Positions 44,285 through 61,586 of a stretch of 61,586 nt of DNA are shown piece by piece (position 1 is the first letter of the stretch; each line of letters starts with the position of its first letter). The notes under the pieces were generated by a model, which saw nothing but the letters and a program-made list of their open reading frames with translations, searched no databases and had not been told where the DNA came from. Source of the stretch: Candidatus Thorarchaeota archaeon (GTDB taxonomy: Archaea > Asgardarchaeota > Thorarchaeia > Thorarchaeales > Thorarchaeaceae); the NCBI GenBank assembly GCA_029855935.1, contig JAGSHN010000024.1, forward strand, positions 1 through 61,586, given 5' to 3'. The position numbers were made by a program, and so were the translations under genes.

Positions 44285-45586
44285 CTACGTCTCGACAGTG
44301 ACACGTGGGGGTCTGTCCTTCCCTTGAGGCTCAAGAGTGATCACGGTGTCGGCGGCACTCTTGAGTTCCTCCATATGGGTCACCACAATGACCTGCCTGA
44401 TGCTCTGCAGCCCGCTGATTGCCTCTGGAAGCCATCTCCGGCGCTGCGAGTCAAGGCCCATTCCGGGCTCGTCCATTATCAGCAGCCCAAGTGGTCTCAG
44501 AATGCCTCTCTCTCCATCTGCGGCGATCCTCTGGAGTGCGCTGTTGACCGCCACACGCAGTGAGAAGTTCACGCATACGTCCTCTCCCCCCGAGGCATTG
44601 CTCAGCGAGACCGGGTTGCCCCTGATGTCGTATAGTCTGACATCGTATTCGTCAGTCAGCTCCAAGTCGCTGTACCTGTCACCGAAGATCTCCAGAAAGA
44701 TGTTCCTCGCCTCGGTCTGGATGAGCGGCTTTATCTGTTGTTCCGCGACCTCTGGTATCTGACCGAGTATCCTGCGAAGGTCGGTGGCTATGGCCTCCTG
44801 TTGATCTGCCTCCCTCTCTCGCTGCTTCAGTTCGGGTGATGAGATCTCGTTATTCAGTTCCGTGACCGTGCCGTAGAGCCTGTCAAGGACCGATCTGATT
44901 GGTTCCAGCTTGTCGGACGCGACACTTGCTGCAACTGATTCCACGGCCTCTCTTGCAGCTGCTATCTCATCAGTTGTCGGCAGGCGGGAGAGCATGTCGC
45001 CCAATCTCTCCCTATGCTCGCCAATCTCTCTCTTTGTCTCCTCTATTTCCTTGATCAGTTTCTTGACTCCTCGTGTGAGGTCCTCGTACTGGCCCAGGCC
45101 CATCATATTCCTCAGAGTCTGCCTCTTCTTGCTCGGAGCTAGACGTGAGAGTAGATCTATGTCGCCCTGCCTCACATAAGTCAGTGCCGCGAAGGTATCC
45201 CTGTCCATCCCCAGTAGTTCGACAATCTCATTGTCCACATCCCGCACCCTCACGAGAGTCGCGCTCTCTTTCCCCTGCTCGTGGAGTTCTGCCGTCGTCT
45301 TGTTTGGAAAGATGTCCCTTCTCACGGTGTAGACGCGGCCGTTGACCGGGGACTCGAACATGAGCTCTACACTTGCTCTCCTACGGCCATGTCTGATGAG
45401 CTCCCGGACCGACCTCACGTCCTTCTCCTTTCGTTTTACCCGCTTGAACAGAGCGAACTCAATGGCCTCAAGGATCGTCGTCTTGCCTGAGCCGTTGGGG
45501 CCAACAATCGTGGTGACTCCGTTGCCCAAGGGAATCTCTTGGTCGCCATAGACTCTGAAGTCTGACATTCTCAGTCTCCTCAGCAT
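44285..45586 (-). CDS. rad50: Rad50-like ATPase, very short and without zinc hook
   Basis: SMC-type ATPase partner of Mre11. Walker A GPNGSGKT is at 29-36, the Q-loop is YVRQGDID (Q140), the ABC signature region SNASGGED at 329-336, Walker B LLIMDEP (E373) and the H-loop VVTHMEE (H404). It has only 433 residues, about half the usual archaeal length. The coiled-coil part is limited to roughly 165-275 and contains no CxxC zinc hook. The reading frame shows no break. It starts seven bases after the Mre11 stop, so both are made together. A hookless Rad50 could not tether ends in the usual way. Confidence 0.9.
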   Translation of the reverse strand: MLRRLRMSDFRVYGDQEIPLGNGVTTIVGPNGSGKTTILEAIEFALFKRVKRKEKDVRSVRELIRHGRRRASVELMFESPVNGRVYTVRRDIFPNKTTAELHEQGKESATLVRVRDVDNEIVELLGMDRDTFAALTYVRQGDIDLLSRLAPSKKRQTLRNMMGLGQYEDLTRGVKKLIKEIEETKREIGEHRERLGDMLSRLPTTDEIAAAREAVESVAASVASDKLEPIRSVLDRLYGTVTELNNEISSPELKQREREADQQEAIATDLRRILGQIPEVAEQQIKPLIQTEARNIFLEIFGDRYSDLELTDEYDVRLYDIRGNPVSLSNASGGEDVCVNFSLRVAVNSALQRIAADGERGILRPLGLLIMDEPGMGLDSQRRRWLPEAISGLQSIRQVIVVTHMEELKSAADTVITLEPQGKDRPPRVTVET

Positions 45587-49124: not shown

Positions 49125-49717
49125 TCTCTTGACCTCCGATACTGTTGGCCAGAACGGGGTTAGTCAGAATGGCATTGGCCTTTGCCACTCAGTGGCCAGG
49201 CTGGTGATAGCAGCGCTCTGTACGTTGTTGGTCCTATGGTTACTCTTTCTACCTTGCGGGGAGCAATGCGACCCGTTGTCTTTGTCATCATCTCTCTGGA
49301 ATTGAGTTCCGGAGAGGGACTGTAACTGTGCCCCTTGTCTTGAGGTAAATCCGTATTCTGACTCCCGCTCCAACCGCTACTGATCGTTCTCTTCTGAGTA
49401 TGTCTCGTGCACATTTACTGATATAAGCAATACGCCCTGTCCTTTTCTGAGAGCAGTCCTCAAGTGGCTAGACTCGTCACTCTGGGTCACGTTCTTCAGA
49501 TAGTGGGAACTCGGGTACACCTCTCATCTCGCGTCTTGGACACTGTTGCGATGGGGCTCACAACGGGCCAAATTCGGGCATCAGATTGGAATTTTCTCGG
49601 CTCATAATGCGTCGCAATGGGATTGTGCCGACGTGGGCCTCTGATTCAGGAGAAATTGGCCGCAGCGGGCCACTCTGGTCACGGCCCAAGACTGAATTTC
49701 TCTGTTGGCCCTTTGTC
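49125..49717. other. Intergenic region before the DNA-processing operon
   Basis: About 590 bases between the divergent GH3 gene and the operon. A TATA-like tgatataagc is at 49419. The region from 49586 is open in the frame of the first operon gene, so the true start could be TTG 49586 or ATG 49607 rather than the ATG at 49718. No RNA gene was recognised. Confidence 0.45.
49419..49428 (+). promoter_or_regulatory. TATA-like element, possible operon promoter
   Basis: The run tgatataagc is the best TATA-like match upstream of the operon, though about 300 bases before the start I assign to the first gene. It could also serve the minus strand. Confidence 0.35.
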
Positions 49718-50494
49718 ATGATGGTGAGCAATGTGATCAGGAATCTGACGGAGCAGTTCTCAGAGGCGTGTGACTCCCAGCCCACCATTGCCGGGATGCT
49801 CGACGTGACGAACTACATGCAGGTGTCATTCAATAGTGAGGACTGGACAATCATCCGAGCAAGATTGGGGCGTCCGAGTGAGGGGAAGCGTGCGCCAATT
49901 CTTGTCCTGGTGATAGGCTTCCGCAGCGAGATGCTCCGTCCCTTTGGACAAGTCCGACTACGCTCTGGAGACTATCTCCCCTGCGACATCCCGGGACTAG
50001 TGCCGGGTCTGGCCGCGGTTGTCGATGGACGCCACAGAGGCTTGGTGGCGAATGCGCTGGTCCGGGGGGATGTCACACGAATGGTGCTGGTCTTCGAGGG
50101 CAAGGTGTCGCAGAGCTCACGCAAGGCACTTCGCTCGCTGGCAACGTCTGTGTATAGATTCTTCACCACGTGGAGAGAGTGGCGTCAGGTGCTGCTGGCC
50201 ACAGTGGAGCGAGATCCTGTTGTCAGTGAGTGGCCACTTGACTGGAGAGAGTTCCTTGCGGGTGAGAGCGGCTTTGTTGTTATGCCCTGGTTCAGGCCAA
50301 TGAGTTACTCAGAGCGCGCGACGGCAATGGACCGTGTTGTTCTTGCGGCGCGGGCTCTGCTTGCCTCTGTCCTCTCACAAGAAGGACTGGAGGACCCTCT
50401 CGTAGTCTCACTGCAGCGGTGGCTCGACGATCTGACGCCACTGCCTCAGGTGCTGTACGAGAGTCGCATTCTGGGGGAGGCTGAGGTTCAATGA
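49718..50494 (+). CDS. Operon protein A, unknown
   Basis: A 258-residue soluble protein. Recognisable only as a mixed alpha/beta protein with hydrophobic strands (RAPILVLVIGFRSEML; VTRMVLVFEGKVSQ), a Trp-rich middle (FFTTWREWRQVLLATV) and a helical C-terminal part. No signal peptide or membrane helix. It is the first gene of a coupled series; its stop overlaps the next start as ATGA. The start is uncertain: ATG 49718 is used because the segment before it looks non-conserved in composition, but TTG 49586 is possible. Confidence 0.65.
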   Translation: MMVSNVIRNLTEQFSEACDSQPTIAGMLDVTNYMQVSFNSEDWTIIRARLGRPSEGKRAPILVLVIGFRSEMLRPFGQVRLRSGDYLPCDIPGLVPGLAAVVDGRHRGLVANALVRGDVTRMVLVFEGKVSQSSRKALRSLATSVYRFFTTWREWRQVLLATVERDPVVSEWPLDWREFLAGESGFVVMPWFRPMSYSERATAMDRVVLAARALLASVLSQEGLEDPLVVSLQRWLDDLTPLPQVLYESRILGEAEVQ

Positions 50495-50967
50495 TGACTG
50501 GCCAGATGATGATGGAGCAGCGGCCTTACGTCGATGTTGCCAATCAATTCTCCCAGGGCTGGCTCGGTGGAGCTGCCGCGGGTCTCATCAGCATACGGGG
50601 GTCCGTTGTGAGTCCGCGCTGGATGGACTTCATCGTTCGTGTCACGTCTGCCCTGAAGCGGAGCGGGCGGGTCTTCCCCGTCTGGCCTGGCGAGACGGTA
50701 TCCCCGCCCCGTGGTCAGCCAATCTCGATGTTCGATGCACTCGCAGGGTATGTGAGCCTCACGGGTCGGGTCCGTGATGGATGTCTAGTCTTCCCTGTCC
50801 CCGCACCCAGGGTCTCTGCAGTGCTCAACATGCTGGGCACCGGAACCGCAATGGGCACGGGAGCGAGAACTCTAGTTGTCGTAGACACCGAGTGTCTCTC
50901 TCAGGTGGTGGCCCTGTTACCAGTCGCTGGCCCTGTGAGAGACGATCTTGAGGAGGCGATGTCGTGA
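50491..50967 (+). CDS. Operon protein B, unknown
   Basis: A 158-residue protein without recognisable motif. A central basic segment (RVTSALKRSGRVFPVWPGE) and a hydrophobic strand (RTLVVVDTECLSQVVALLPV) are visible. It overlaps the gene before (ATGA) and after (GTGA). Its position immediately upstream of the RadA paralogue suggests it is a partner of that ATPase, by analogy with other coupled pairs; this is inference. Confidence 0.68.
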   Translation: MMTGQMMMEQRPYVDVANQFSQGWLGGAAAGLISIRGSVVSPRWMDFIVRVTSALKRSGRVFPVWPGETVSPPRGQPISMFDALAGYVSLTGRVRDGCLVFPVPAPRVSAVLNMLGTGTAMGTGARTLVVVDTECLSQVVALLPVAGPVRDDLEEAMS

Positions 50968-52031
50968 AGCCACTGGAGGAGGTCCGTGGCATAGGCCCCA
51001 CAATTGCTCGGAAGCTGAAGAACGCCTTCATAACAACGGCGGAGCTACTTGCCGTGCAGAACCCCGCAGAGCTACATCAGAAGACAGGTATTGCTGAGGG
51101 CACGGCAAAGAAGATCATCGCGAACGCCAGAGAGGCTCTCGGGCTTCAGGACTTCGTGCCTGGCCTGCAGGTCGAGAAGGAGATGATGGAGCAGCCCAAG
51201 CTGACAACTGGTGTACCAGCAATTGACCAGGCACTGATGGGCGGCATAGAGTCGGGTTCGATTGTCGAGTTCTACGGTCCCGCAAAGGCTGGCAAGACGC
51301 TGTGGTGCTCTCAGTTGGCGGTGAGAGTGCAACTGCCCTTCGAACAGGGTGGTCTTGAGGGGCGTGTACTGTGGCTAGACACAGAGAACGCCTTCAAGCC
51401 TTGGCAGATACGCGCTATGGCAAAGAGGTTCGGTCTGGATCCTGAGGCCGCGCTGGGGAACATCCGGAGGGCGAAGGTGATTCTCTCAGCGCAGATAATT
51501 GACATCTTTGAGTCGATCCCGCAGAGGTGCGCGGAGGAGGATGTCCGGCTTGTAGTCATCGACTCGCTTGTCGGCCTATTTCGTGCCGAGTATGTTGGCC
51601 TTGATCTGCTGCGGCTGAGGCAACAGGACCTCAATCGTCTACTGAACCTGATGCGAAGGACCTCTGCGGCAACGGGCGCGGTGTTTGTGTACACCAATCA
51701 GGTGATGGCCTCCATCGGCACATGGGGATCGAGCGGGATTGCTCCCGCGGGCGGACACATTCTCTCGCACGGCTCCGACTATCGCTTCAGGCTGACGGCG
51801 CGCAAGGATGACTTGCGTTCAATCACGCTTGTTGACAATGCTGGTGTGCCCGAGTTCTCCATTGTGCTTCGCGTCGGGTGGGGCGGCTTCTATCCAGACC
51901 CGAAGGAGAAGAAGAGCGCTGAGCCTGAGATACTCGAGTACCTGTCAGAGGCAGGATACAGATGGCGTAGTGTTGACGACAAGACCGAGCCTGCCAGGGC
52001 CAAGATTGAGTCAAAGGAGGTCCGGACATGA
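50964..52031 (+). CDS. RadA-family recombinase paralogue with N-terminal HhH domain
   Basis: A 355-residue RecA-superfamily ATPase. Residues 1-62 are a helix-hairpin-helix domain (VRGIGPTIARKLKNAF; TGIAEGTAKKIIANAREAL). Walker A is GPAKAGKT (105-112), the catalytic Glu is in LDTENAF (E141), Walker B is LVVIDSL (D200) and TNQV begins the L2 region. L2 is altered (MASIGTWGSSGIAPAGGHI) compared with the usual RadA loop. Full-length RadA architecture but a divergent core suggests a specialised paralogue rather than the housekeeping recombinase. GTG start overlaps the previous stop. Confidence 0.88.
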   Translation: MKPLEEVRGIGPTIARKLKNAFITTAELLAVQNPAELHQKTGIAEGTAKKIIANAREALGLQDFVPGLQVEKEMMEQPKLTTGVPAIDQALMGGIESGSIVEFYGPAKAGKTLWCSQLAVRVQLPFEQGGLEGRVLWLDTENAFKPWQIRAMAKRFGLDPEAALGNIRRAKVILSAQIIDIFESIPQRCAEEDVRLVVIDSLVGLFRAEYVGLDLLRLRQQDLNRLLNLMRRTSAATGAVFVYTNQVMASIGTWGSSGIAPAGGHILSHGSDYRFRLTARKDDLRSITLVDNAGVPEFSIVLRVGWGGFYPDPKEKKSAEPEILEYLSEAGYRWRSVDDKTEPARAKIESKEVRT

Positions 52032-52486
52032 GCGGGCACGCTGGTCGCAACGAGCGCGGGATGTTCAGGGTCTATAGGTGCAGGTCATGTCGCCACGTTG
52101 GGTATGATAGAGTTGAGTCTGAGGAGGATACCACCCACTGCCCGCTGTGCGGTGCTGCTGTGGAGGACGACCCCTCGGTGGTCTACGTCGCGACACTGAG
52201 CGAGGCGGAGGATTTGATGCGCCAAATGGTCCTGACATCTAGATCGGTACATACCGCGAGGGCTGCCTTTCCGCGCAACCTCGGTGTCAAGAGGCGAGTT
52301 GAGAACATCATCCGCGACCTGATTGCTCTCAATCGAGGCCGTCCGGTCAGTCTCTCTGTCGTGCTTCAGGAGTGTTCGTATGCGGGTATTGCCCCTGAAC
52401 GGGCGGTGCGTTTTATGGCCGCACTTGAGGCTGAGGGCCGGATTCGTAATGATGGGCTGGTTGTAGAAGTAACGGAGGAGTGGTAG
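52028..52486 (+). CDS. Zinc-ribbon plus winged-helix protein (DUF5817-like)
   Basis: A 152-residue protein. An N-terminal zinc ribbon (C18-x2-C21 ... C38-x2-C41) is followed by a linker with TLSEAEDLMRQMVLTSRS, recalling archaeal DUF5817 proteins. A C-terminal winged helix (about 85-150) follows, with AGIAPERAVRFMAALEAEGRI as recognition part. It probably binds DNA, either as an operon regulator or as a DNA-loading factor for the neighbouring ATPase. Its ATG overlaps the RadA-paralogue stop (ATGA). Confidence 0.78.
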   Translation: MSGHAGRNERGMFRVYRCRSCRHVGYDRVESEEDTTHCPLCGAAVEDDPSVVYVATLSEAEDLMRQMVLTSRSVHTARAAFPRNLGVKRRVENIIRDLIALNRGRPVSLSVVLQECSYAGIAPERAVRFMAALEAEGRIRNDGLVVEVTEEW

Positions 52487-52490
52487 TCAG

Positions 52491-53120
52491 ATGGTAGTGA
52501 GTGACAGCGCGGCTCCAGACACGCTGGCGGAACGCGGGCGCCACCGGAGGACCATTGCGGGAAAATCGTTGCTGAACCTCACGAATCTCCTGTTGCGACA
52601 GACCGACCATCGTGTCGTCACGCTGCAGCGAGATACAGAACCAGATCCCGAGATCTACGTTGTGACCCGGGTCGAGTGGAGGGACCCCAGTGTTCATCGC
52701 CCGGTCTTGCCCCAGCTACCGCGACTTCTGTCGGTGCTTGAGGCGCTCAGAGGTACTCAGGGAGTCCCCACTGAGATATACCTTGACAGCACGGAAGGCC
52801 TCACGGTCTATCTGAGGACTGGCGTTAGGCTCTCGGAGCTACCAGCCAGTTCGAGAGATGCTGTCGCGCTACTGACTGGGGTGGTACACCGCACAGTGTC
52901 TCATCTGTATTCCACGGTGCGTGATGTAGAGGAGTACTTCTGGATGGCGGCTCGGAGGCACGGTTTCAGTCCCGAGATTGTGGAGAAGATGGCGCTGGGA
53001 GTGAGGCACTTCGACTCTCCGGCGCTCCGACTGCGGTTCTCTGAGCTGATGCATTCCTACTTCTCAATCCGTTTCCGAATACATCGCGCAGAGGGCTGCC
53101 TCAGAGTCGAGGGAGGCTGA
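52491..53120 (+). CDS. Operon protein E, unknown
   Basis: A 209-residue mostly helical protein. The middle has a beta-like segment (PTEIYLDSTEGLTVYLRTGV) followed by a long helical part (VHRTVSHLYSTVRDVEEYFW). No known motif. It sits four bases after the zinc-ribbon gene and seven bases before the XPD-like helicase, so it is very probably a partner in the same assembly. There is no similarity by eye to Bax1, the usual archaeal XPD partner. Confidence 0.68.
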   Translation: MVVSDSAAPDTLAERGRHRRTIAGKSLLNLTNLLLRQTDHRVVTLQRDTEPDPEIYVVTRVEWRDPSVHRPVLPQLPRLLSVLEALRGTQGVPTEIYLDSTEGLTVYLRTGVRLSELPASSRDAVALLTGVVHRTVSHLYSTVRDVEEYFWMAARRHGFSPEIVEKMALGVRHFDSPALRLRFSELMHSYFSIRFRIHRAEGCLRVEGG

Positions 53121-53127
53121 TCACACC

Positions 53128-55083
53128 GTGGCTGCGACGACGAGCGATCCGATGCGGTACTTTCCCTACGTGCCGAGGCCGCATCAGGACAGGGCCGTTC
53201 GTCTTGCGGCCAACGTGTTCTCACGTGGAGGCGTCGGCCTGTTGTCGGCAGACTGTGGTGTGGGCAAGACCATTGCAGTGTTGGCCGGTTACCTAGCAGC
53301 GAGAGCTGAACAGCCCGGGTCACGCCTGTTCATACTCACCAGAACACACTCTCAGACAAGTGTCTTCGAGTCGGAGATTGCCGTTCTTCGATCCTCCTAC
53401 GGTCACATCACCGCGACGTCCCTTGTGTCGAGAGCGCATATGTGCCCCATGCGGGAAATGATGGGAGAGACCTCCCTAGCTGGCTTTCTTCGGACATGCG
53501 CCCTATACATACGTTCCGGTAGGTGTTCGTACTTCTGGGACCTCTACAGAAGAGGTCCTGAGGGCCGTGTGCTCAGAGACGATGCGCGGGAACTGGTCGA
53601 CGAACTCCTCTCGGGCGGTGTAGTCACGCGTGCTGTAGTTGAGGCTGCCTCCGAGGACAATGCAGTCTGTCCCTATGAGCTTCTCCGCTGCGCTGCTCGC
53701 GAGAGCAGGATTGTCATCGGCCCCTACCCTTACCTCTTCAAGTCCACAGTCCGGCGCGCAACTCTGGCCTCATTGGGTATCACGCTGGACGACCTTGACA
53801 TAATAGTCGACGAGGCGCACAACCTCCCTGAACACGTTCTTGAGGCCGAGACCGCACGTCTCTCCGCTCACGATCTGCTGTGGCTGAGAGAGAACCTGGA
53901 TGATGTCTGCAAGATGACGGGCATCTCGTGGACGGGAGATGTCGTGGACTTCTTCTGGGAGTCGATGATGACGGCATTGGACCGGGTCGCGGACAGTTCG
54001 GAGATACGTCTTGAGAAGTGGGATGTGGCTCCTAGATTTGTGCAGCCTCGTGATCTTGACGCCCTGGCAGAATCGGCACGGCCAGACATCACCGACCCGG
54101 ACGGCGCGGTCAATGCCGAGACGCCGCTTGACCGGCTCATCGAGTTCCTCTATGCTGCACTCCACACGGTGCAGAGTGAGGACTGGCTTGTGACTCTCAA
54201 CATAGCTCCACATGGCGATGACACTCCGAAGTTTATGAGCGCCAGTCTGACTGTGCGGCCATTCAACGCGGCTGCCTTGGCTGGTCCTGTTCTCAGGGGT
54301 GCTCGAGCTGCGCTGTTAATGTCCGGCACCCTGAGACCTGTCAGGCACTACTCCACACTCCTCGGAATCCCTGACGCAGTGGCCGAGGAGCTGGCAAGTC
54401 CCTATCCTCAGGGGACGAGGATGGTCTTGGTCGACACGGTCCTCTCGACCAAATACCGCGAGCGGTCTGACGACCTCTGGAGACTCGTAGCGGAACGGAT
54501 TGGCGCAGTCCTCTCAACGGTCCCAGCGGAGAAGAGCGCGCTGATTGCCTTTCCCAGCTATGCAGTCATGCGCGAGGTGTTGGTGTATGCGCCCGACACA
54601 GGTTTTCGTACGCCTCTTGTTGAGTCACCTCGATCTCAGCTCGCTGAACTCGCTGACGCCATCGCAACGGGGCCTCACGCAATCTTCTGCGTCTATGGCG
54701 GAAAGTTCTCGGAGGGTGTGGACCTTGTCGAGAGCGGGTCGAGCATGATTGATGTCATTGTTGGTGTTGGTATACCTTTCTCTCCGCCGTCTTCGTATCA
54801 GCTCGCGCTCCAGAGGTGGCTGGATGAGAGGTTTGGGAGGGGCATGGGGTACTACTATGCCACGACTATTCCCTCGTTACGGAAGGTGACGCAGCTGATA
54901 GGACGGCTGCGCCGTTCCCCGTCGGACTGGGGGATTGTCGTGCTCATTGACAGACGATTCCTTCGTCATCTCTCGCTATTGGGCGAGGATGTGTATGCGG
55001 ATCTGTGGCCGTACTCCACGGTCGAGGAGTTGACTTACGCAATCGCCGAGTATCTTCGTCTGAAGGGGGCTGGTGCAATTTGA
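53128..55083 (+). CDS. XPD/Rad3-like Fe-S DNA helicase
   Basis: A 651-residue SF2 helicase. Motif I is ADCGVGKT (41-48), motif Ia LTRTHSQ, the DEAH box is IIVDEAHNLPEH (228-231) and motif VI QLIGRLRRSPSDWG. Between I and II lie the cysteines C106, C124, C133 and C181 (with C188 nearby), in the position of the XPD 4Fe-4S cluster. XPD enzymes unwind DNA 5' to 3' in nucleotide excision repair. Here it is embedded in the coupled operon, so it may serve a dedicated pathway. The start is GTG. Confidence 0.92.
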   Translation: MAATTSDPMRYFPYVPRPHQDRAVRLAANVFSRGGVGLLSADCGVGKTIAVLAGYLAARAEQPGSRLFILTRTHSQTSVFESEIAVLRSSYGHITATSLVSRAHMCPMREMMGETSLAGFLRTCALYIRSGRCSYFWDLYRRGPEGRVLRDDARELVDELLSGGVVTRAVVEAASEDNAVCPYELLRCAARESRIVIGPYPYLFKSTVRRATLASLGITLDDLDIIVDEAHNLPEHVLEAETARLSAHDLLWLRENLDDVCKMTGISWTGDVVDFFWESMMTALDRVADSSEIRLEKWDVAPRFVQPRDLDALAESARPDITDPDGAVNAETPLDRLIEFLYAALHTVQSEDWLVTLNIAPHGDDTPKFMSASLTVRPFNAAALAGPVLRGARAALLMSGTLRPVRHYSTLLGIPDAVAEELASPYPQGTRMVLVDTVLSTKYRERSDDLWRLVAERIGAVLSTVPAEKSALIAFPSYAVMREVLVYAPDTGFRTPLVESPRSQLAELADAIATGPHAIFCVYGGKFSEGVDLVESGSSMIDVIVGVGIPFSPPSSYQLALQRWLDERFGRGMGYYYATTIPSLRKVTQLIGRLRRSPSDWGIVVLIDRRFLRHLSLLGEDVYADLWPYSTVEELTYAIAEYLRLKGAGAI

Positions 55084-55673
55084 GATGGCGCGACAGCAGC
55101 TATACTGTCTACTATCTTCTTGGCGCGATTGTCACTGGTACGCTAGTCCGGCTCATACTGCTGGATCAGAGCATCGTCTCTGCAGCAATGGTCGCTGTCG
55201 CGGCGGTCCTCTCCACGGCAGTCGCATTGCTCATCCGGAGCGACTATTCTCCGGTCGTACTGTGGAATCCGCGTCTGAAGACGATGGCTGTGATTCGGCG
55301 CTGGTCGGTTGAGGTGAGCGCTGGTTGTCTCTTCTCCAGCGTCCCAATGGGGATTGACCTGAGCCGCAGCGCAAAGTTTCTCCTCAGAACACTTCACGGC
55401 CTCTTCGGGCGCGGCGAAAACTCGTCACTGCGATTCTTTGTAGTCCGTCCCCTCGGTGACGAGCCCACCCGCGTCGGGTTGATGCTGACTCGTCGTATGC
55501 TGTGTCTTGGCAACGTGACTTCAAAGGTCGCCAGTCTGGCAGAGACGGTCAGCAGGGAGCTCACTAGTCTGGAGAGCGCCGTCCGGTCGGTCTATCCTCA
55601 TACTCCTGTTGACATTGCGGATCGCGACGACCTCATACACGTCTATTCTGGAGGTGCGCCCAGTGCTGCCTGA
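55080..55673 (+). CDS. Two-TM membrane protein upstream of HerA-like protein
   Basis: A 197-residue protein. Two membrane helices lie near the N-terminus (YYLLGAIVTGTLVRLILL; AAMVAVAAVLSTAVALLI), then about 140 soluble residues. The TTG start at 55080 overlaps the helicase stop as TTGA, with a GGGGG run upstream; the frame runs further left inside the helicase gene. The layout (two-TM protein just before a VirB4/HerA-like gene) recalls PrgI-VirB4 pairs of conjugation systems, but sequence similarity is not visible. Confidence 0.7.
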   Translation: MRWRDSSYTVYYLLGAIVTGTLVRLILLDQSIVSAAMVAVAAVLSTAVALLIRSDYSPVVLWNPRLKTMAVIRRWSVEVSAGCLFSSVPMGIDLSRSAKFLLRTLHGLFGRGENSSLRFFVVRPLGDEPTRVGLMLTRRMLCLGNVTSKVASLAETVSRELTSLESAVRSVYPHTPVDIADRDDLIHVYSGGAPSAA

Positions 55674-55950
55674 GTGTCTGTCGTCTGCTCGCAGAATAGC
55701 CCTGCCCTCGGGGCTACGCACAGAGTCTGTGATGAGTCTGCTCAGGCGCTCTCTGTCGTATCACTGGCTGATTGTCCTTCGGACGCCGCAGCTGGTGGCA
55801 TACGGCCTGCCGCCACACGATGCTGTCTCGGCACTTGCGATTATCGGCAGGGATCTCTTCGTCATTCAAGACGATGGTGGCAGCACGATGTCCGCGTTGG
55901 CACGTCTGCTGGCCGCACTATCTGCATCGCAGGAGGTGAGTCAACGATGA
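55663..55950 (+). CDS. Small operon protein H, unknown
   Basis: A 95-residue protein without TM or known motif; it reads MLPECLSSARRIALPSGL at the start and has a helical C-terminus (MSALARLLAALSAS). GTG at 55663 is chosen because GGAGGT is seven bases upstream and the start overlaps the end of the previous gene by 11 bases. Its stop overlaps the next ATG (ATGA). Confidence 0.62.
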   Translation: MLPECLSSARRIALPSGLRTESVMSLLRRSLSYHWLIVLRTPQLVAYGLPPHDAVSALAIIGRDLFVIQDDGGSTMSALARLLAALSASQEVSQR

Positions 55951-58310
55951 CCAAGACCGTGATGGGCGCGAGTCCGGAGGTGGAGCCGGTTGAGCGGATG
56001 CTGAGGCGGTCAGAGGAGGCACCATCACGCGAGTATATACAGTGGGAGAACCGGAACAGACCTACAGGTCTGAGGGGCGTGCAGGCGCTCATCGGGCTCG
56101 CCCTTGTTGCCAGTGTGTTGTCACCGCCACTTGTCCTGATTGCCCTTGGAGTGTCTGCAGCCACCGTGGCTCTGCTCCGCTCAGGCCGCTCAAGGGCCAG
56201 AGGGACGTGGCGTGGACTGAACGGATGGAGGCGAATTCGACACCGGACGTCTCGATTGCGATACCATAGCACTCACGTCACCCTGCGGCGAGGCAGGTAC
56301 CTTGGCGGCGCCAGTCTGTCAGACGCAGCCCCCCATCTGTCTGGAAGACTGAGTGGACTGCTGCGGGCACTGTCGTCGCGCCACGGGTTTGCTCTTCTGG
56401 TCGAGCTGTCACCAGAGAGTGCAATCGGCCTGGATCCATCTGCACTGACCGAGTGGCAGGCTGAACATCTGCCCGGGTCTGAACGACAGCTGGAGTCACT
56501 GTTCTGGCGTCACGGATGTCTCTGGAGTGCGAGGGCCGTGATCTTGGCCCATGGACGGACCGAGCAATACGTGTCCACCACCCTAGACATTGCACTTGGC
56601 GCCCTAGGTGATGCAAATTGGGCGCGTCTTGACGGTCGTTCCCTGATGAGGAGGTATTGCAGACTGGACCTGCTCCCCGAATCGTCATTCTATGCCACAG
56701 GCGAAGAGCTCTCAGGATGGCTTGTACAATTGGCCAGCGAGCTATCCTCTGATCTTGGCAGCAACGTACCCGGGGAGTTTCTGACGCCAGCAAAGGTCGA
56801 GAAGTGTGATTACGTCCTTGGCAGAATCATCGACCCGGAGACTCTGCGACTTGGACCTGAGACCGGGCTGACCGACAAGGACCTTCAGGGTGGAGTATGG
56901 ATCGCTGGTGGGACGGATGTTGTGCGGAGAGAGGTGCTTGCGAGAGTCGTCTGCAGGCTGCTGGAGAGGGGCCAGAGAGTGGTGTACATCGCTACAGACT
57001 CGGCCGCAGGTGCCATCGCTTCCCTCGCCAGAGAGGCTGCGGTCTTGCAGCTCGGGCACAACCTGATATTGAACCCCGTCGACCCGGATGGCCTCCCTGC
57101 GAACAGATATGCTGTGCTCCTCCTGCGGGCGCTTGAGGGACTTCTTGAGCGTGACCGCCCGCGGGGCGACCTTGAAGGGGCTGTCGAGCTTGAGATGGCT
57201 CTTGCGCGAGCGATCTCGAGAAAGGATGCGACCCTCGCCGATGTATCTATTGACACTGCCGCTCTCAGCCCGACCGACTCCAGCTCTGGGGCTGGACCGC
57301 CCCGCCAGTCGAGCCCGTCGATGTATCGTTCGATGCTTGGTCTCACACTCGTAGAGGAGCTGTACAAAGGCAGTGCTGCGTCCGCATTCTACGGTAGCCA
57401 GACGCTCAGCGCCGAGGAGATGGCCTCAGGTGATCTCACAGTCATCACCCTACCTCTACCAACACGCGAGCTCCAGCGATTCGCTCTGGATCTTCTGCTT
57501 CTCAAGCTCAGTGGTGTTCCGCGTGACGACGCTCTTGTAGTTGTCGTGGAGAACGCCCACAACTTTGCTGGCAGGGAGTCTTGGTCACTTGCCCTCGTTG
57601 ACAGGCTGTTCCGTCGAGGACCGCTCATCCTCGGAACGGAAGCATTGTCCAAGATGCCAGACGTACTCCGCGGTCGTTTCTGCTCAGCCGGTGTTCTCCA
57701 GATGAGCGATTCATCGGACATCAGGGCAGCCGCGGACCTCCTCGGTCTGGGTGTCATAGCGACAGGTCTGCATAGCAAGAGTCGAAGTTCTCTGCGAGAG
57801 ACCTCGTTTCTGCGGACGATGGGACAAGACACCGTTCTCCTCAGGTCCGGTTCGCGTAGGCTGGCTGTGGCCGTCCGATTGTCGCCGGCTCCAGAACTGG
57901 AGAGTCGCCCGCTCTCTGATGTTCAGTCCACTGCGCGTCAGACCGAGTCAGTACGGCGAGATGATCGTGTCAGAGGAGATCGCTCTCTCACGTTGATCGA
58001 GGAGGTCGCCGGGCGTCAGGCCTCCCTTGCTGCCAGGATACTGCGGCTGCTGGAGAGATACGAGCCTCTCACGGTACGTGCGCTGGAGCAGTTTCTTGCG
58101 GCCAGTGAGGACAGCTCACCAGCCAGCTCCGCATCCGCCCCCGACGGTGAGGTGGACAGCGTGATAACACGTCTTGAACGCGCGAGTCTTGTGTTGCGTG
58201 GACACGAGGTCCACGGCAATGTCTCGTACACCAACTATCGCCTGACGATGAAGGGGCGGCTGGCTCTCAGACAGACGGAACAGGAGGAGAGGGAGGGACT
58301 AGCGGAGTGA
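55947..58310 (+). CDS. Membrane-anchored HerA/VirB4-like protein with eroded Walker motifs
   Basis: A 787-residue protein. A TM hairpin (about 44-78) precedes a VirB4-like N-terminal region (about 105-280). An FtsK/HerA-like domain follows: GVWIAGGTDVVRREVLARVV (from 316) stands where Walker A should be, then LERGQRVVYIATD, LILNPVDPDG, VVVVENAHNF (531-540) at Walker B, and GPLILGTEALSKMPDVLRG matching the HerA ATQRPS sensor region. The GK(S/T) of Walker A and the DE of Walker B are both missing, so it probably cannot hydrolyse ATP. The C-terminus (about 680-787) is a winged helix. Confidence 0.8.
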   Translation: MTKTVMGASPEVEPVERMLRRSEEAPSREYIQWENRNRPTGLRGVQALIGLALVASVLSPPLVLIALGVSAATVALLRSGRSRARGTWRGLNGWRRIRHRTSRLRYHSTHVTLRRGRYLGGASLSDAAPHLSGRLSGLLRALSSRHGFALLVELSPESAIGLDPSALTEWQAEHLPGSERQLESLFWRHGCLWSARAVILAHGRTEQYVSTTLDIALGALGDANWARLDGRSLMRRYCRLDLLPESSFYATGEELSGWLVQLASELSSDLGSNVPGEFLTPAKVEKCDYVLGRIIDPETLRLGPETGLTDKDLQGGVWIAGGTDVVRREVLARVVCRLLERGQRVVYIATDSAAGAIASLAREAAVLQLGHNLILNPVDPDGLPANRYAVLLLRALEGLLERDRPRGDLEGAVELEMALARAISRKDATLADVSIDTAALSPTDSSSGAGPPRQSSPSMYRSMLGLTLVEELYKGSAASAFYGSQTLSAEEMASGDLTVITLPLPTRELQRFALDLLLLKLSGVPRDDALVVVVENAHNFAGRESWSLALVDRLFRRGPLILGTEALSKMPDVLRGRFCSAGVLQMSDSSDIRAAADLLGLGVIATGLHSKSRSSLRETSFLRTMGQDTVLLRSGSRRLAVAVRLSPAPELESRPLSDVQSTARQTESVRRDDRVRGDRSLTLIEEVAGRQASLAARILRLLERYEPLTVRALEQFLAASEDSSPASSASAPDGEVDSVITRLERASLVLRGHEVHGNVSYTNYRLTMKGRLALRQTEQEEREGLAE

Positions 58311-60532
58311 CAGTGGCCGCGATCAAATCAGAGGTCCTCGACCTTCTCTCATCGGCTTCGTTGGAGCCGCGGGGAGTCCAGAGAGAGGCGATTGAGAGAG
58401 GCCTACTAGAGGGTGCCAGCCTAATGGTCTGCAGTCCGACAGGCTCGGGGAAGACTCTTGTTGGCGAGATGGCGGCTCTACGTGCCGTACTGTCTGGGGA
58501 GCGCGCCCTCTATCTCGTGCCCCTTCGTGCCCTCGCGGCCCAAGTCAGTTCGGTGATGAGGGAGCGCTACCAGGCCCGCGGAGTCCGAGTGGGCGTCACA
58601 ACGGGCGACTTTCAGACGGACGCTGAGTATCTTGCGGATGCCGAGATTATTGTGACAACCTTCGAGCGCGCGGACTCTCTGATGCGCCGTCGGGCACCTT
58701 GGCTCGACGAGGTCGGCACGGTGGTCGTTGATGAGGTCCAGACGATTGGAGAGCGCGGTAGGGGTGCCCGCCTTGAGTCGGTCCTGATGCGTCTGAGGAG
58801 ACTGCTGCCAGAGGTCCAGATCGTTGCACTGTCGGCGACAATAGGCGCTCCTGAGGAACTGGCTGAATGGCTTGGTTGCGACCTGATAGTTTCTGAGCAG
58901 CGTCCGGTGCCACTGCACTACTCAATCGTTCCCACTCGTGACAAGGTGCAGACGTTGAGAAACATCGTCCTTGCGACGGTACGCGCGGACGGCCAGTCAA
59001 TAGTCTTCGCAAGGACGCGGCGTGATGCAGAGAGCTTGGCCTCGCATCTTGCCCCTGAGATCGGACGGCATATGACATCAGCGGAACAGCGTGAGGTGAG
59101 CTCGGAGCTCGACTCTGTTGAGAACTGGTATGTCTCGCCGCCAAGGGCTCTTCGCGGTCTGTTGCATCACGGTGTCGCCTTTCATCACGCGGGCCTGTCC
59201 TATTCTGTCAGAGATCTGATTGAGCGGCTCTTCCGACGCGGGCTGCTTCGCGTTGTCTTCGCGACGTCGACGCTCTCCGCCGGAGTTGACTTTCCGGCAC
59301 GGACGGTCATTGTGACCGATGTCCGTTCACCTTCAGATCACCGGACTCTGATATCCGCGAACCAGCTTCATCAGATGCTCGGCCGAGCAGGCCGCCCCGG
59401 TCACGATACCATGGGGATGGGCATCGTACTAGTGGGAAGCAAGGGCGAGGCTGAGACGGTGCGTGACAGGTACTTCGACGTCATGGAGGACGCTGAGACT
59501 GGCGAAACAGTTCTGTTTCCACGGTACGACCGCGTGAACAGCGTCTTGAGCGACCCGGAGGCTCTGACCGAACAGGTTCTCGTCGCTCTGGCCACACTGG
59601 GAGAGTCTAGTCCCCAGAAACTGGTTGACGAGTATTTCAGCGACTCCTTTCTCTCATTCTGCAGCGTCCGGGACTCGAGAGCGCCAGCGAGGGTGCTGCC
59701 GATAGATGCCGTGGACGCGCGCGTGGCAATGGAGTGCAGGGCCTTCTCGGACACCGTGAGAGCCGCCAGCGAAGGGGTTCTAGGACATGCGACAATCCGC
59801 GAGAAGACGGAGACGACCATTGGCGGAATCGTTCGGGACTGGGACGGCAACCAGCACACATGCCGCTTCTCGTCTAGGACCGACGCTACTGGTCTGGTGG
59901 AGGGTCCGATGTGTTCCTGTGGCCAGCCCGTGGACAGACACGGGATACTCTGCCCCCATCTTGTCTGTCTTGGTATCACAGCCGCAACAGAGCTAGGCTC
60001 GTTGGCCGACTATGTGGTCCCACTTTCTCTTGATGTGACCAGTCCCGTGCAGGTGCTGGTGCGGCTGGGGCTGATTGAGGGTGCAGAGGGGAATGCGCTC
60101 AGAGCAACGCGTCTCGGTCGACTTGTGTGCCGGTTGTATCTCAGAATCTCGACCACGCGAGAGATGCTCGCTCTGCTGCCCCTGGTTGACAATGGTCAGG
60201 ACGTGGTAAGTCTTCTACGACACTTGGTCTCGCTGGAGATGGGGGCGAGACTACCCGACTCGTTCGAGTCGTTCATCGCGGGCCTGGCCTCGACAGGTAT
60301 TCCCCTCTCGAAGCTTGCTGCAGATGCGGAGATTGATGAGGGTGATGCCCTCGGTCTGGTGGACGCGTCGCGCTGGCTGCTCTCGGCCATGGCTGCAGTT
60401 GCGGACCACGGGGGCCTCGATACAGCTCGCGAGATCATCCAGTCGCTTCTGGTCGCGCTGGATGGTCGTAGTGAGGCATTTGGCAAGACAGTTGACGGAG
60501 AGTGTGAAACAGATGGCAATACTGAGCCGTGA
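58307..60532 (+). CDS. Ski2-like (Hel308-type) helicase with SWIM zinc finger
   Basis: A 741-residue SF2 helicase. Motif I is SPTGSGKT (43-50), the DExH position reads DEVQ (about 142-145), SAT is present and motif VI is QMLGRAGRPGHD. After the RecA cores comes a SWIM zinc finger, C536-x-C538-x10-C549-x-H551, which is not found in Hel308. The C-terminal 180 residues are helical and lack an obvious Sec63 or ratchet signature. It should be a 3' to 5' DNA translocase. The GTG start overlaps the previous stop (GTGA). Confidence 0.9.
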   Translation: MTVAAIKSEVLDLLSSASLEPRGVQREAIERGLLEGASLMVCSPTGSGKTLVGEMAALRAVLSGERALYLVPLRALAAQVSSVMRERYQARGVRVGVTTGDFQTDAEYLADAEIIVTTFERADSLMRRRAPWLDEVGTVVVDEVQTIGERGRGARLESVLMRLRRLLPEVQIVALSATIGAPEELAEWLGCDLIVSEQRPVPLHYSIVPTRDKVQTLRNIVLATVRADGQSIVFARTRRDAESLASHLAPEIGRHMTSAEQREVSSELDSVENWYVSPPRALRGLLHHGVAFHHAGLSYSVRDLIERLFRRGLLRVVFATSTLSAGVDFPARTVIVTDVRSPSDHRTLISANQLHQMLGRAGRPGHDTMGMGIVLVGSKGEAETVRDRYFDVMEDAETGETVLFPRYDRVNSVLSDPEALTEQVLVALATLGESSPQKLVDEYFSDSFLSFCSVRDSRAPARVLPIDAVDARVAMECRAFSDTVRAASEGVLGHATIREKTETTIGGIVRDWDGNQHTCRFSSRTDATGLVEGPMCSCGQPVDRHGILCPHLVCLGITAATELGSLADYVVPLSLDVTSPVQVLVRLGLIEGAEGNALRATRLGRLVCRLYLRISTTREMLALLPLVDNGQDVVSLLRHLVSLEMGARLPDSFESFIAGLASTGIPLSKLAADAEIDEGDALGLVDASRWLLSAMAAVADHGGLDTAREIIQSLLVALDGRSEAFGKTVDGECETDGNTEP

Positions 60533-61586
60533 CGATGATGATGTTGGAGAGATGATGCCCCTTGCGGGTAGCGAGAAGAGCCACGATGTGGCCCGTGTTC
60601 TCCTCGACAGTGGGCACAGAGTGGCACAGCTGCCCAATGGCGTGACATTGGGTGTGCGGCTTGAGGGAATTCCGTACTCCTGCGGCGTTCACGTTGATGT
60701 GGTCTTCGTGGTCGACCTTCGTCGAGCGCGATTCGGAAGAGGCCCATTCGCTATGAAGACTGCTCTATGGCCGATTGTCACGCAGCGCCTTGACAGCCTC
60801 CTAGAACACGTCGCCCTCTCGGATGTGCTCAAGACGCGAACGATTCTCACTCAGCGCGGGAGGATCTCGTTTGACGTCCTGGAGCATCCAGACGGTCGCA
60901 GTACGTCCTTCATCCACGAAACCCGCACAATATACGTCGTCACAGGTGACCTGCGACCGACAGTTGACCTGTCCTGGCTGACGAGGCCGAGTCGTGTGGT
61001 CACGGCAGAGGAGTTTCCTCTCGTCCGTGCGAGCGACATTCGCGCCTCACGACCAGTCCTTGAAGAGGTGGTTGACGCCGAGAAGTGGGAGGACCTTGAG
61101 TCCCTAATACGATCGACTTGGATCTCGATCTTTCTCACCGGGCTGGCTGCTCTGCTATTCCTGAGCTACGCCGTGGGCCTTGGTTCGACGTCACTCCTCG
61201 TACACGGACCACTAATCATCGCGGCTGCGGGCCTAGCTGTCGTGGTGGTGTGGCTGCAGCTCAGAGCTGGTCGGCTGTTCAGGGCCTTTGTCGAGACCAC
61301 AGAGCGTGAGATCAGAGCGCTCCAGAGGTCTGATGACGTTGGGATTGTCGAACGCCACTTCAGCGAGGCCGGCGATGCACTACGTATCCTGGAGAGCCTG
61401 CAGATCAGAGTACCTCCGCTCCTTATCTCCGCAGCCGAGGCTCTCCGTTCCCATGATTGCAATGTTGCTGTGCAGCTCGCATCTGCCATCCTTGACGACT
61501 GCGTGACGCTCTCGACCTTTGGCGTTGTTTCCGATGACGAGTTTGCCACAGCTGACACGGGACTGGGCGTCTTCCTCGGGCTCTTC
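60513..61586 (+). CDS. Operon protein K, TM protein (partial, runs off the window)
   Basis: At least 358 residues, open to the last base. The N-terminal 190 residues are soluble and rich in beta strands (GVTLGVRLEGIPYSCGVHVDV; RTIYVVTGDLRPTVDL). Two membrane helices follow (about 200-250; ISIFLTGLAALLFLSYAVGL and GPLIIAAAGLAVVVVWL). A helical segment with charged repeats comes next. The family is unknown. The ATG at 60513 overlaps the helicase gene by 20 bases. Confidence 0.68.
   Translation, partial: MAILSRDDDDVGEMMPLAGSEKSHDVARVLLDSGHRVAQLPNGVTLGVRLEGIPYSCGVHVDVVFVVDLRRARFGRGPFAMKTALWPIVTQRLDSLLEHVALSDVLKTRTILTQRGRISFDVLEHPDGRSTSFIHETRTIYVVTGDLRPTVDLSWLTRPSRVVTAEEFPLVRASDIRASRPVLEEVVDAEKWEDLESLIRSTWISIFLTGLAALLFLSYAVGLGSTSLLVHGPLIIAAAGLAVVVVWLQLRAGRLFRAFVETTEREIRALQRSDDVGIVERHFSEAGDALRILESLQIRVPPLLISAAEALRSHDCNVAVQLASAILDDCVTLSTFGVVSDDEFATADTGLGVFLGLF

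Follow-up and report, generated by a model that had tools for sequence, protein, structure and literature searches.

The window analysed here is a stretch of 61,586 nucleotides from a Candidatus Thorarchaeota archaeon (assembly GCA_029855935.1, contig JAGSHN010000024.1, positions 1 to 61,586 of the forward strand). Toward its end lies the gene for a 787-residue protein, pHerA, which in Thorarchaeota belongs to a conserved operon with about 15 genes. The window ends inside gene 11. The operon genes found in it are as follows.

49586-50494, forward strand: orf302, conserved in the operon
50491-50967, forward strand: orf158, conserved in the operon
50964-52031, forward strand: RadA paralogue with an intact Walker A motif
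52028-52486, forward strand: Zn152, a Zn-ribbon protein of 152 aa (sub-threshold Pfam matches)
52491-53120, forward strand: orf209, marker of the operon
53128-55083, forward strand: XPD/Rad3-like helicase with intact Walker A (ADCGVGKT) and DEAH motifs
55005-55673, forward strand: TM222, two TM helices and what is probably another copy of the pHerA N-domain; uncertain start codon
55609-55950, forward strand: orf113, conserved in the operon
55947-58310, forward strand: pHerA, predicted pseudo-ATPase of VirB4/HerA fold, 787 aa (ORF, model and motif alignment)
58307-60532, forward strand: Hel308-like helicase with intact PTGSGKT and DEVQ motifs and a SWIM-type CxCx(n)CxH motif
60552-61586, forward strand: 5' part of gene 11 (TM488), two TM helices in the middle of the protein; runs off the contig, start approximate

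The pHerA reading frame begins with ATG at 55947 and ends with a stop codon at 58310 (787 codons). Its ends overlap the neighboring genes by 4 bp each, orf113 on the upstream side and the Hel308-like gene on the downstream side. The gene order from orf302 to the Hel308-like gene is the same in nearly every relative with a sufficient contig. Among the examined loci, Hel308 is a neighbor in 22 of 22, and XPD, TM222, orf113 and orf209 in 21 of 22 each. At loci L038 and L040 the RadA matches come from other RecA-fold genes and not from the operon RadA; in L038, no RadA, orf158 or orf302 adjoins Zn152. A second RadA, encoded at another place in the same genome, shares 39% identity with the operon RadA. 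The first-pass annotation had placed pHerA in an operon with two active helicases, and the intact motifs of the XPD-like and Hel308-like proteins predict the same. The SWIM-type zinc motif of the latter (CSCG...CPH) is located in its C-terminal half. No NurA family, the nuclease of the HerA-NurA pair, was found among the operon products scanned with Pfam. In a promoter and terminator scan, terminators were not above chance, and the promoter model is for sigma-70 and not applicable to archaea.

After Hel308, the operon continues with TM488, a RecA-fold ATPase with an intact Walker A motif, a 4-TM protein, a pseudo-RecA protein and an XPG/FEN1-like nuclease. All five genes are found in 14 of 16 loci, and the other two contigs end early. 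The pseudo-RecA protein is the second pseudo-P-loop protein of the operon. It is RadA/RadB-like (L026:17108-17836 and equivalents), and its RecA fold lacks Walker A in 14 of 14 loci, the P-loop being replaced by an HGPxRxPL-type sequence; a RecA-fold gene at another place (L037:1285) is not counted among these. The 4-TM protein is a polytopic membrane protein with a cytosolic domain. Its model matches EccE weakly (Z 8.8 at rmsd 13.8; Z 8.4 at rmsd 3.7), and VirB6 and CedA are not among its listed fold matches, which does not show that a resemblance is lacking.

HerA/VirB4 proteins are viewed as motors. Scans of the window pHerA with Pfam, NCBIfam and PADLOC gave no matches, and its structure was modeled with AlphaFold2 from the window protein and 18 Thorarchaeota homologues. 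The mean pLDDT is 72, reaching about 90 across most of the RecA-type core. The features located in the protein are listed below.

56073-56210, forward strand: two transmembrane helices, residues 43-88 (model and hydrophobicity)
56244-56696, forward strand: VirB4-like N-domain, about residues 100-250 (fold match, profile alignment)
56907-56930, forward strand: degenerate Walker A, GGTDVVRR, residues 321-328 (profile alignment, 19-row alignment)
57537-57554, forward strand: degenerate Walker B, VVVVEN, residues 531-536 (19-row alignment)
57771-57815, forward strand: invariant K-x-R-x-S-x-R-E-x3-L segment, within residues 609-623 (19-row alignment)
58017-58307, forward strand: C-terminal winged helix, about residues 691-787 (model, conservation)

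Structural alignment identified the RecA-type core fold of the FtsK-HerA superfamily in the model. The top match is VirB4 of Thermoanaerobacter (4ag5; Z 28.3, rmsd 2.7 over 324 residues, model residues 281-652), followed by DndH (Z 25.6), HerA (4d2i; Z 25.0) and TrwB (Z 21.8). These matches bear out the earlier assignment of a HerA/VirB4-like fold. R388 TrwK/VirB4 matches model residues 102-664 including the N-domain, but at an rmsd near 20, which leaves the orientation between N-domain and core unfixed. The pHerA profile aligns to that of intact Asgard HerA with a probability of only 46% (pairwise E 2e-4), and in a PDB sequence search with the pHerA alignment all HerA matches were sub-threshold (best E 0.046). 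A viral fold library returned generic HerA/FtsK-type and unrelated matches. The proposed membrane anchor is present as two N-terminal TM helices, with hydrophobic stretches starting at residues 40 and 59. The proposed winged helix is also seen, formed by helices and a beta-wing at residues 683-786 of the model and conserved in sequence among homologues. Pfam finds no winged helix in the window protein; it calls HTH domains in distant homologues.

The P-loop of pHerA is altered from GxxxxGK[S/T] to GGxxxxR(x), and reads IAGGTDVVRRE in the window protein. Profile alignment places this segment on the P-loop of intact Asgard HerA, with R327 on the lysine. G321, G322 and R327 are invariant in all 19 rows of the alignment. 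The second Walker A glycine (position 326) is found in none of them, and the Ser/Thr position 328 is T in two. The first-pass annotation was thus right that GK(S/T) is missing, but the motif has not been erased, since the first glycine and an arginine in place of the lysine are kept in 19 of 19. The same holds for Walker B. Its sequence VVVVENAHNF has no DE pair, as had been noted, but the first acid is retained (D/E in 18 of 19 rows; E535 in the window protein). The position of the catalytic Glu is E in three of 19 rows and N in the window protein.

The loss is shared by relatives. Walker A, defined as [A/G]xxxxG[K/R][S/T], is found at the aligned position in 0 of 19 full-length Thorarchaeota and 0 of 25 distant homologues; arginine occupies the lysine position in 20 of the 25, as read by eye from aligned segments. 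The pattern [GA]x4GK[ST] is found nowhere in the 19 full-length homologues. A K/R-tolerant pattern occurs off-position in two of them, at residue 75 of the window protein, near the TM helices, and, within the N-domain, at residue 204 of L044. Among distant homologues, strict or tolerant whole-protein matches lie at 234 in L116 and 468 in L106 (0-based), also off the aligned P-loop. An intact P-loop elsewhere in the chain is therefore ruled out. A local error or recent decay is ruled out as well, the loss being common to all homologues examined. From the alignments, the fragment L025 and the 5'-truncated L040 and L063 were left out of A1/A2, L039 out of A1, and the fragments L061 and L062 out of A2, which comprises 18 of 21 loci and the window protein. 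The distant set contains 26 ORFs, of which L099 lacks the P-loop region, hence the count of 25.

Column identity averages 54% over the 19 rows, and homologues are 31-40% identical to the window protein. Conservation is highest in the linker at residues 251-285 (0.78), followed by the winged helix (0.64) and the core (0.55-0.63), and lowest in the TM helices (0.34). Judged from these sequences, pHerA is under purifying selection. Together with the motifs, this profile is the pattern of a maintained pseudo-enzyme, and pHerA is very probably an ancient pseudo-ATPase. In the available part of PMC9436818, EssC D2 of the same superfamily is described as using GR[S/T]; by analogy, pHerA may bind nucleotide without hydrolyzing it.

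K611, R613 and R617, in the K-x-R-x-S-x-R-E-x3-L segment, are invariant in the 19-row alignment. This segment is a possible arginine finger. Such a role would suit a hetero-oligomer in which an inert pHerA provides the arginine finger or the geometry to an active membrane HerA, an intact VirB4-like ATPase encoded elsewhere. A candidate partner exists in the same genome, a TM-anchored HerA-like protein of 1296 aa with the motif GATGMGKT (L155:8268-12155, in G000:C17). It adjoins a protein that has a TM helix close to the N-terminus, and counterparts exist in three other family genomes examined. There is also precedent, as VirB4 subunits of two kinds, central and outside, are described for T4SS in the accessible text of PMC12624023. 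However, this HerA is encoded outside the operon, and proteins matching it in size are also found in genomes without pHerA (G004, G005, G016). In addition, CedB and CedD without their TM helices failed to co-purify (PMC11868833). We consider such a partnership improbable.

The pHerA profile matches 52 of 195 genomes of the phylum: 27 of 47 in the family of the window and 25 of 148 elsewhere, across 12 other family-level groups. Beyond Asgard archaea, peptide patterns were used and not the profile; their matches in public records are nearly all from Thorarchaeota, with a few labelled Lokiarchaeota or 'archaeon'. Among the 47 family genomes, orf209 and pHerA are both present in 26, one alone in three and neither in 18, absences being soft in draft genomes. 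The single genome with pHerA and no orf209 has a fragment. Of the two with orf209 and no pHerA, G011 has a contig ending inside XPD, and in G172 (L153) the downstream half is not adjacent, XPD having no adjoining TM222 or pHerA. The operon thus appears to be gained or lost as a unit.

This patchy presence would fit an anti-invader defence system, in which a HerA-type scaffold acts with helicases and a nuclease. Yet PADLOC gave only generic helicase cross-matches, with nothing for the other 8 proteins scanned, and no relatives of pHerA were found in viral contigs, phages or plasmids. RadA and XPD in one operon would also be unusual for defence. HerA-centred capture systems are on record (PMC12839542, as far as its available text goes); a defence role for the pHerA operon is nevertheless very improbable.

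Several other Asgard groups encode the protein in two pieces, an N-half ORF with the TM helices and N-domain and a C-half ORF with the core and winged helix. The N-half ORFs match the pHerA N-domain in hhalign with probabilities of 97-99. TM222 matches the stand-alone N-half ORFs with probabilities of 93-95, including a YPH-containing segment. The two matches together suggest that TM222 carries a second N-domain, although direct hhalign comparison of TM222 with the pHerA N-domain gave nothing (probability below 1%). orf113 gave nothing with any N-domain.

The distant loci, counted as 25, are from non-family genomes (G162 has a further locus, L114, which is left out of this count). They also hold RecA-fold ATPases (11/25) and Hel308 (8/25). 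Large proteins with terminal TM helices are located beside pHerA in 8 of the 25. Among these large proteins, an M28 peptidase domain is found in those of L095 and L103, and a prenyltransferase-type toroid in those of L041 and L110.

pHerA resembles VirB4 (4ag5, R388 TrwK) in its RecA-type core fold, the preceding N-domain and membrane association. Unlike VirB4, it has no P-loop or catalytic Glu, has a C-terminal winged helix, and is encoded in a recombination operon and not among T4SS genes. CedB and CedD of the crenarchaeal DNA import system share with it TM helices, a VirB4-like N-domain and a HerA-type core, and as in the pHerA operon there are two N-domain-bearing proteins per system. PMC11868833, the source for these likenesses, maps the CedB and CedD N-domains to different parts of the VirB4 N-domain and describes both proteins as ATPases, whereas pHerA is inactive by motif. 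The Ced system has a CedA1-type pilin, and none was recognized in the pHerA operon in an untargeted look. The NCBIfam CedD model matches two distant pHerA homologues weakly (E 8e-7 and 7e-5). These matches are generic and orthology to CedD was rejected on this basis, as the model matched 29 of 29 genomes and 8 of 14 control genomes. The degenerate D3 domain of EssC/EccC in type VII secretion is likewise an FtsK-HerA domain kept in a membrane machine; in the available text of PMC9436818 it is fused to active domains, whereas pHerA is a separate protein family.

The retention of an ancient dead motor in many Asgards, in a DNA-handling cluster, hints that pHerA may be a membrane-located ring or scaffold without motor function. 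The first-pass annotation had proposed a structural ring or a DNA-gating subunit; either role would be putative. Most likely, with a probability of about 0.5, pHerA is the nucleotide-independent membrane platform of a DNA-exchange or recombination complex, which works like VirB4/CedB systems but is not a member of them. pHerA would be descended from a VirB4/HerA-type DNA-translocating ATPase that lost nucleotide hydrolysis for good, and would have been kept as a structural, DNA-binding platform. It would oligomerize through the RecA core, be tethered to the membrane jointly with TM222 and the polytopic protein, and bind DNA through its winged helix. ATP-using partners would do the work. The two helicases may open or pull DNA, the XPG-like nuclease may trim it, and the RadA paralogue may load on the resulting single strand so that homologous recombination can follow.

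Such a platform would most likely serve to take up DNA, or to exchange it between cells, with recombination coupled to the process. Three features hint at transport: the VirB4 ancestry, the membrane proteins, and the large TM proteins beside pHerA in other Asgards. RadA and the helicases in the operon hint at recombination. We propose a transport purpose tentatively, at somewhat less than even odds. More doubtful is a complete Asgard machine for DNA uptake or exchange that is coupled to homologous recombination and powered by the helicases, with a VirB4-type ring and one RecA-fold protein as permanent pseudo-ATPases. RadA proteins near distant pHerA loci are 43-45% identical to the housekeeping RadA versus 35-39% to the operon RadA, so the RadA genes at these loci may not be orthologues of the latter. 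The lack of a recognized pilin argues against transport, as does the lack of a recognized VirB6-like channel. Both are consistent with the main alternative to uptake or exchange, a repair centre for the cell's own DNA. In it, a membrane-tethered complex would anchor the chromosome or broken ends for homologous-recombination repair, and no DNA would cross the membrane. The operon products are repair and recombination enzymes, which also fits. However, two TM-bearing N-domain copies, a polytopic protein and the large TM proteins exceed the needs of a tether, and we regard a repair centre as rather unlikely.

Degenerate superfamily members within larger proteins are already known (EssC/EccC D3; PMC9436818, in part). 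A VirB4/HerA-fold family that fails the ATPase-defining motifs as a stand-alone protein appears to be new. The literature covered, with most subscription journals and bioRxiv preprints outside its scope, describes in its available portions no stand-alone pseudo-HerA/VirB4 family like pHerA and no Asgard DNA-uptake or exchange machinery. In a motor-less clade kept across a phylum, nature would have uncoupled the ring architecture from ATP use. Asgard archaea are the group closest to eukaryotes. The pHerA operon suggests that they have a membrane-linked recombination system, and it supplies named genes for a direct test.

Upstream of the operon, Rad50 (44285-45586, reverse strand) is only 433 aa long, with a short coiled-coil region and no CxxC zinc hook, and adjoins Mre11. 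Rad50 homologues of the same size, in open frames of 428-443 aa, are found in seven other genomes of the family.
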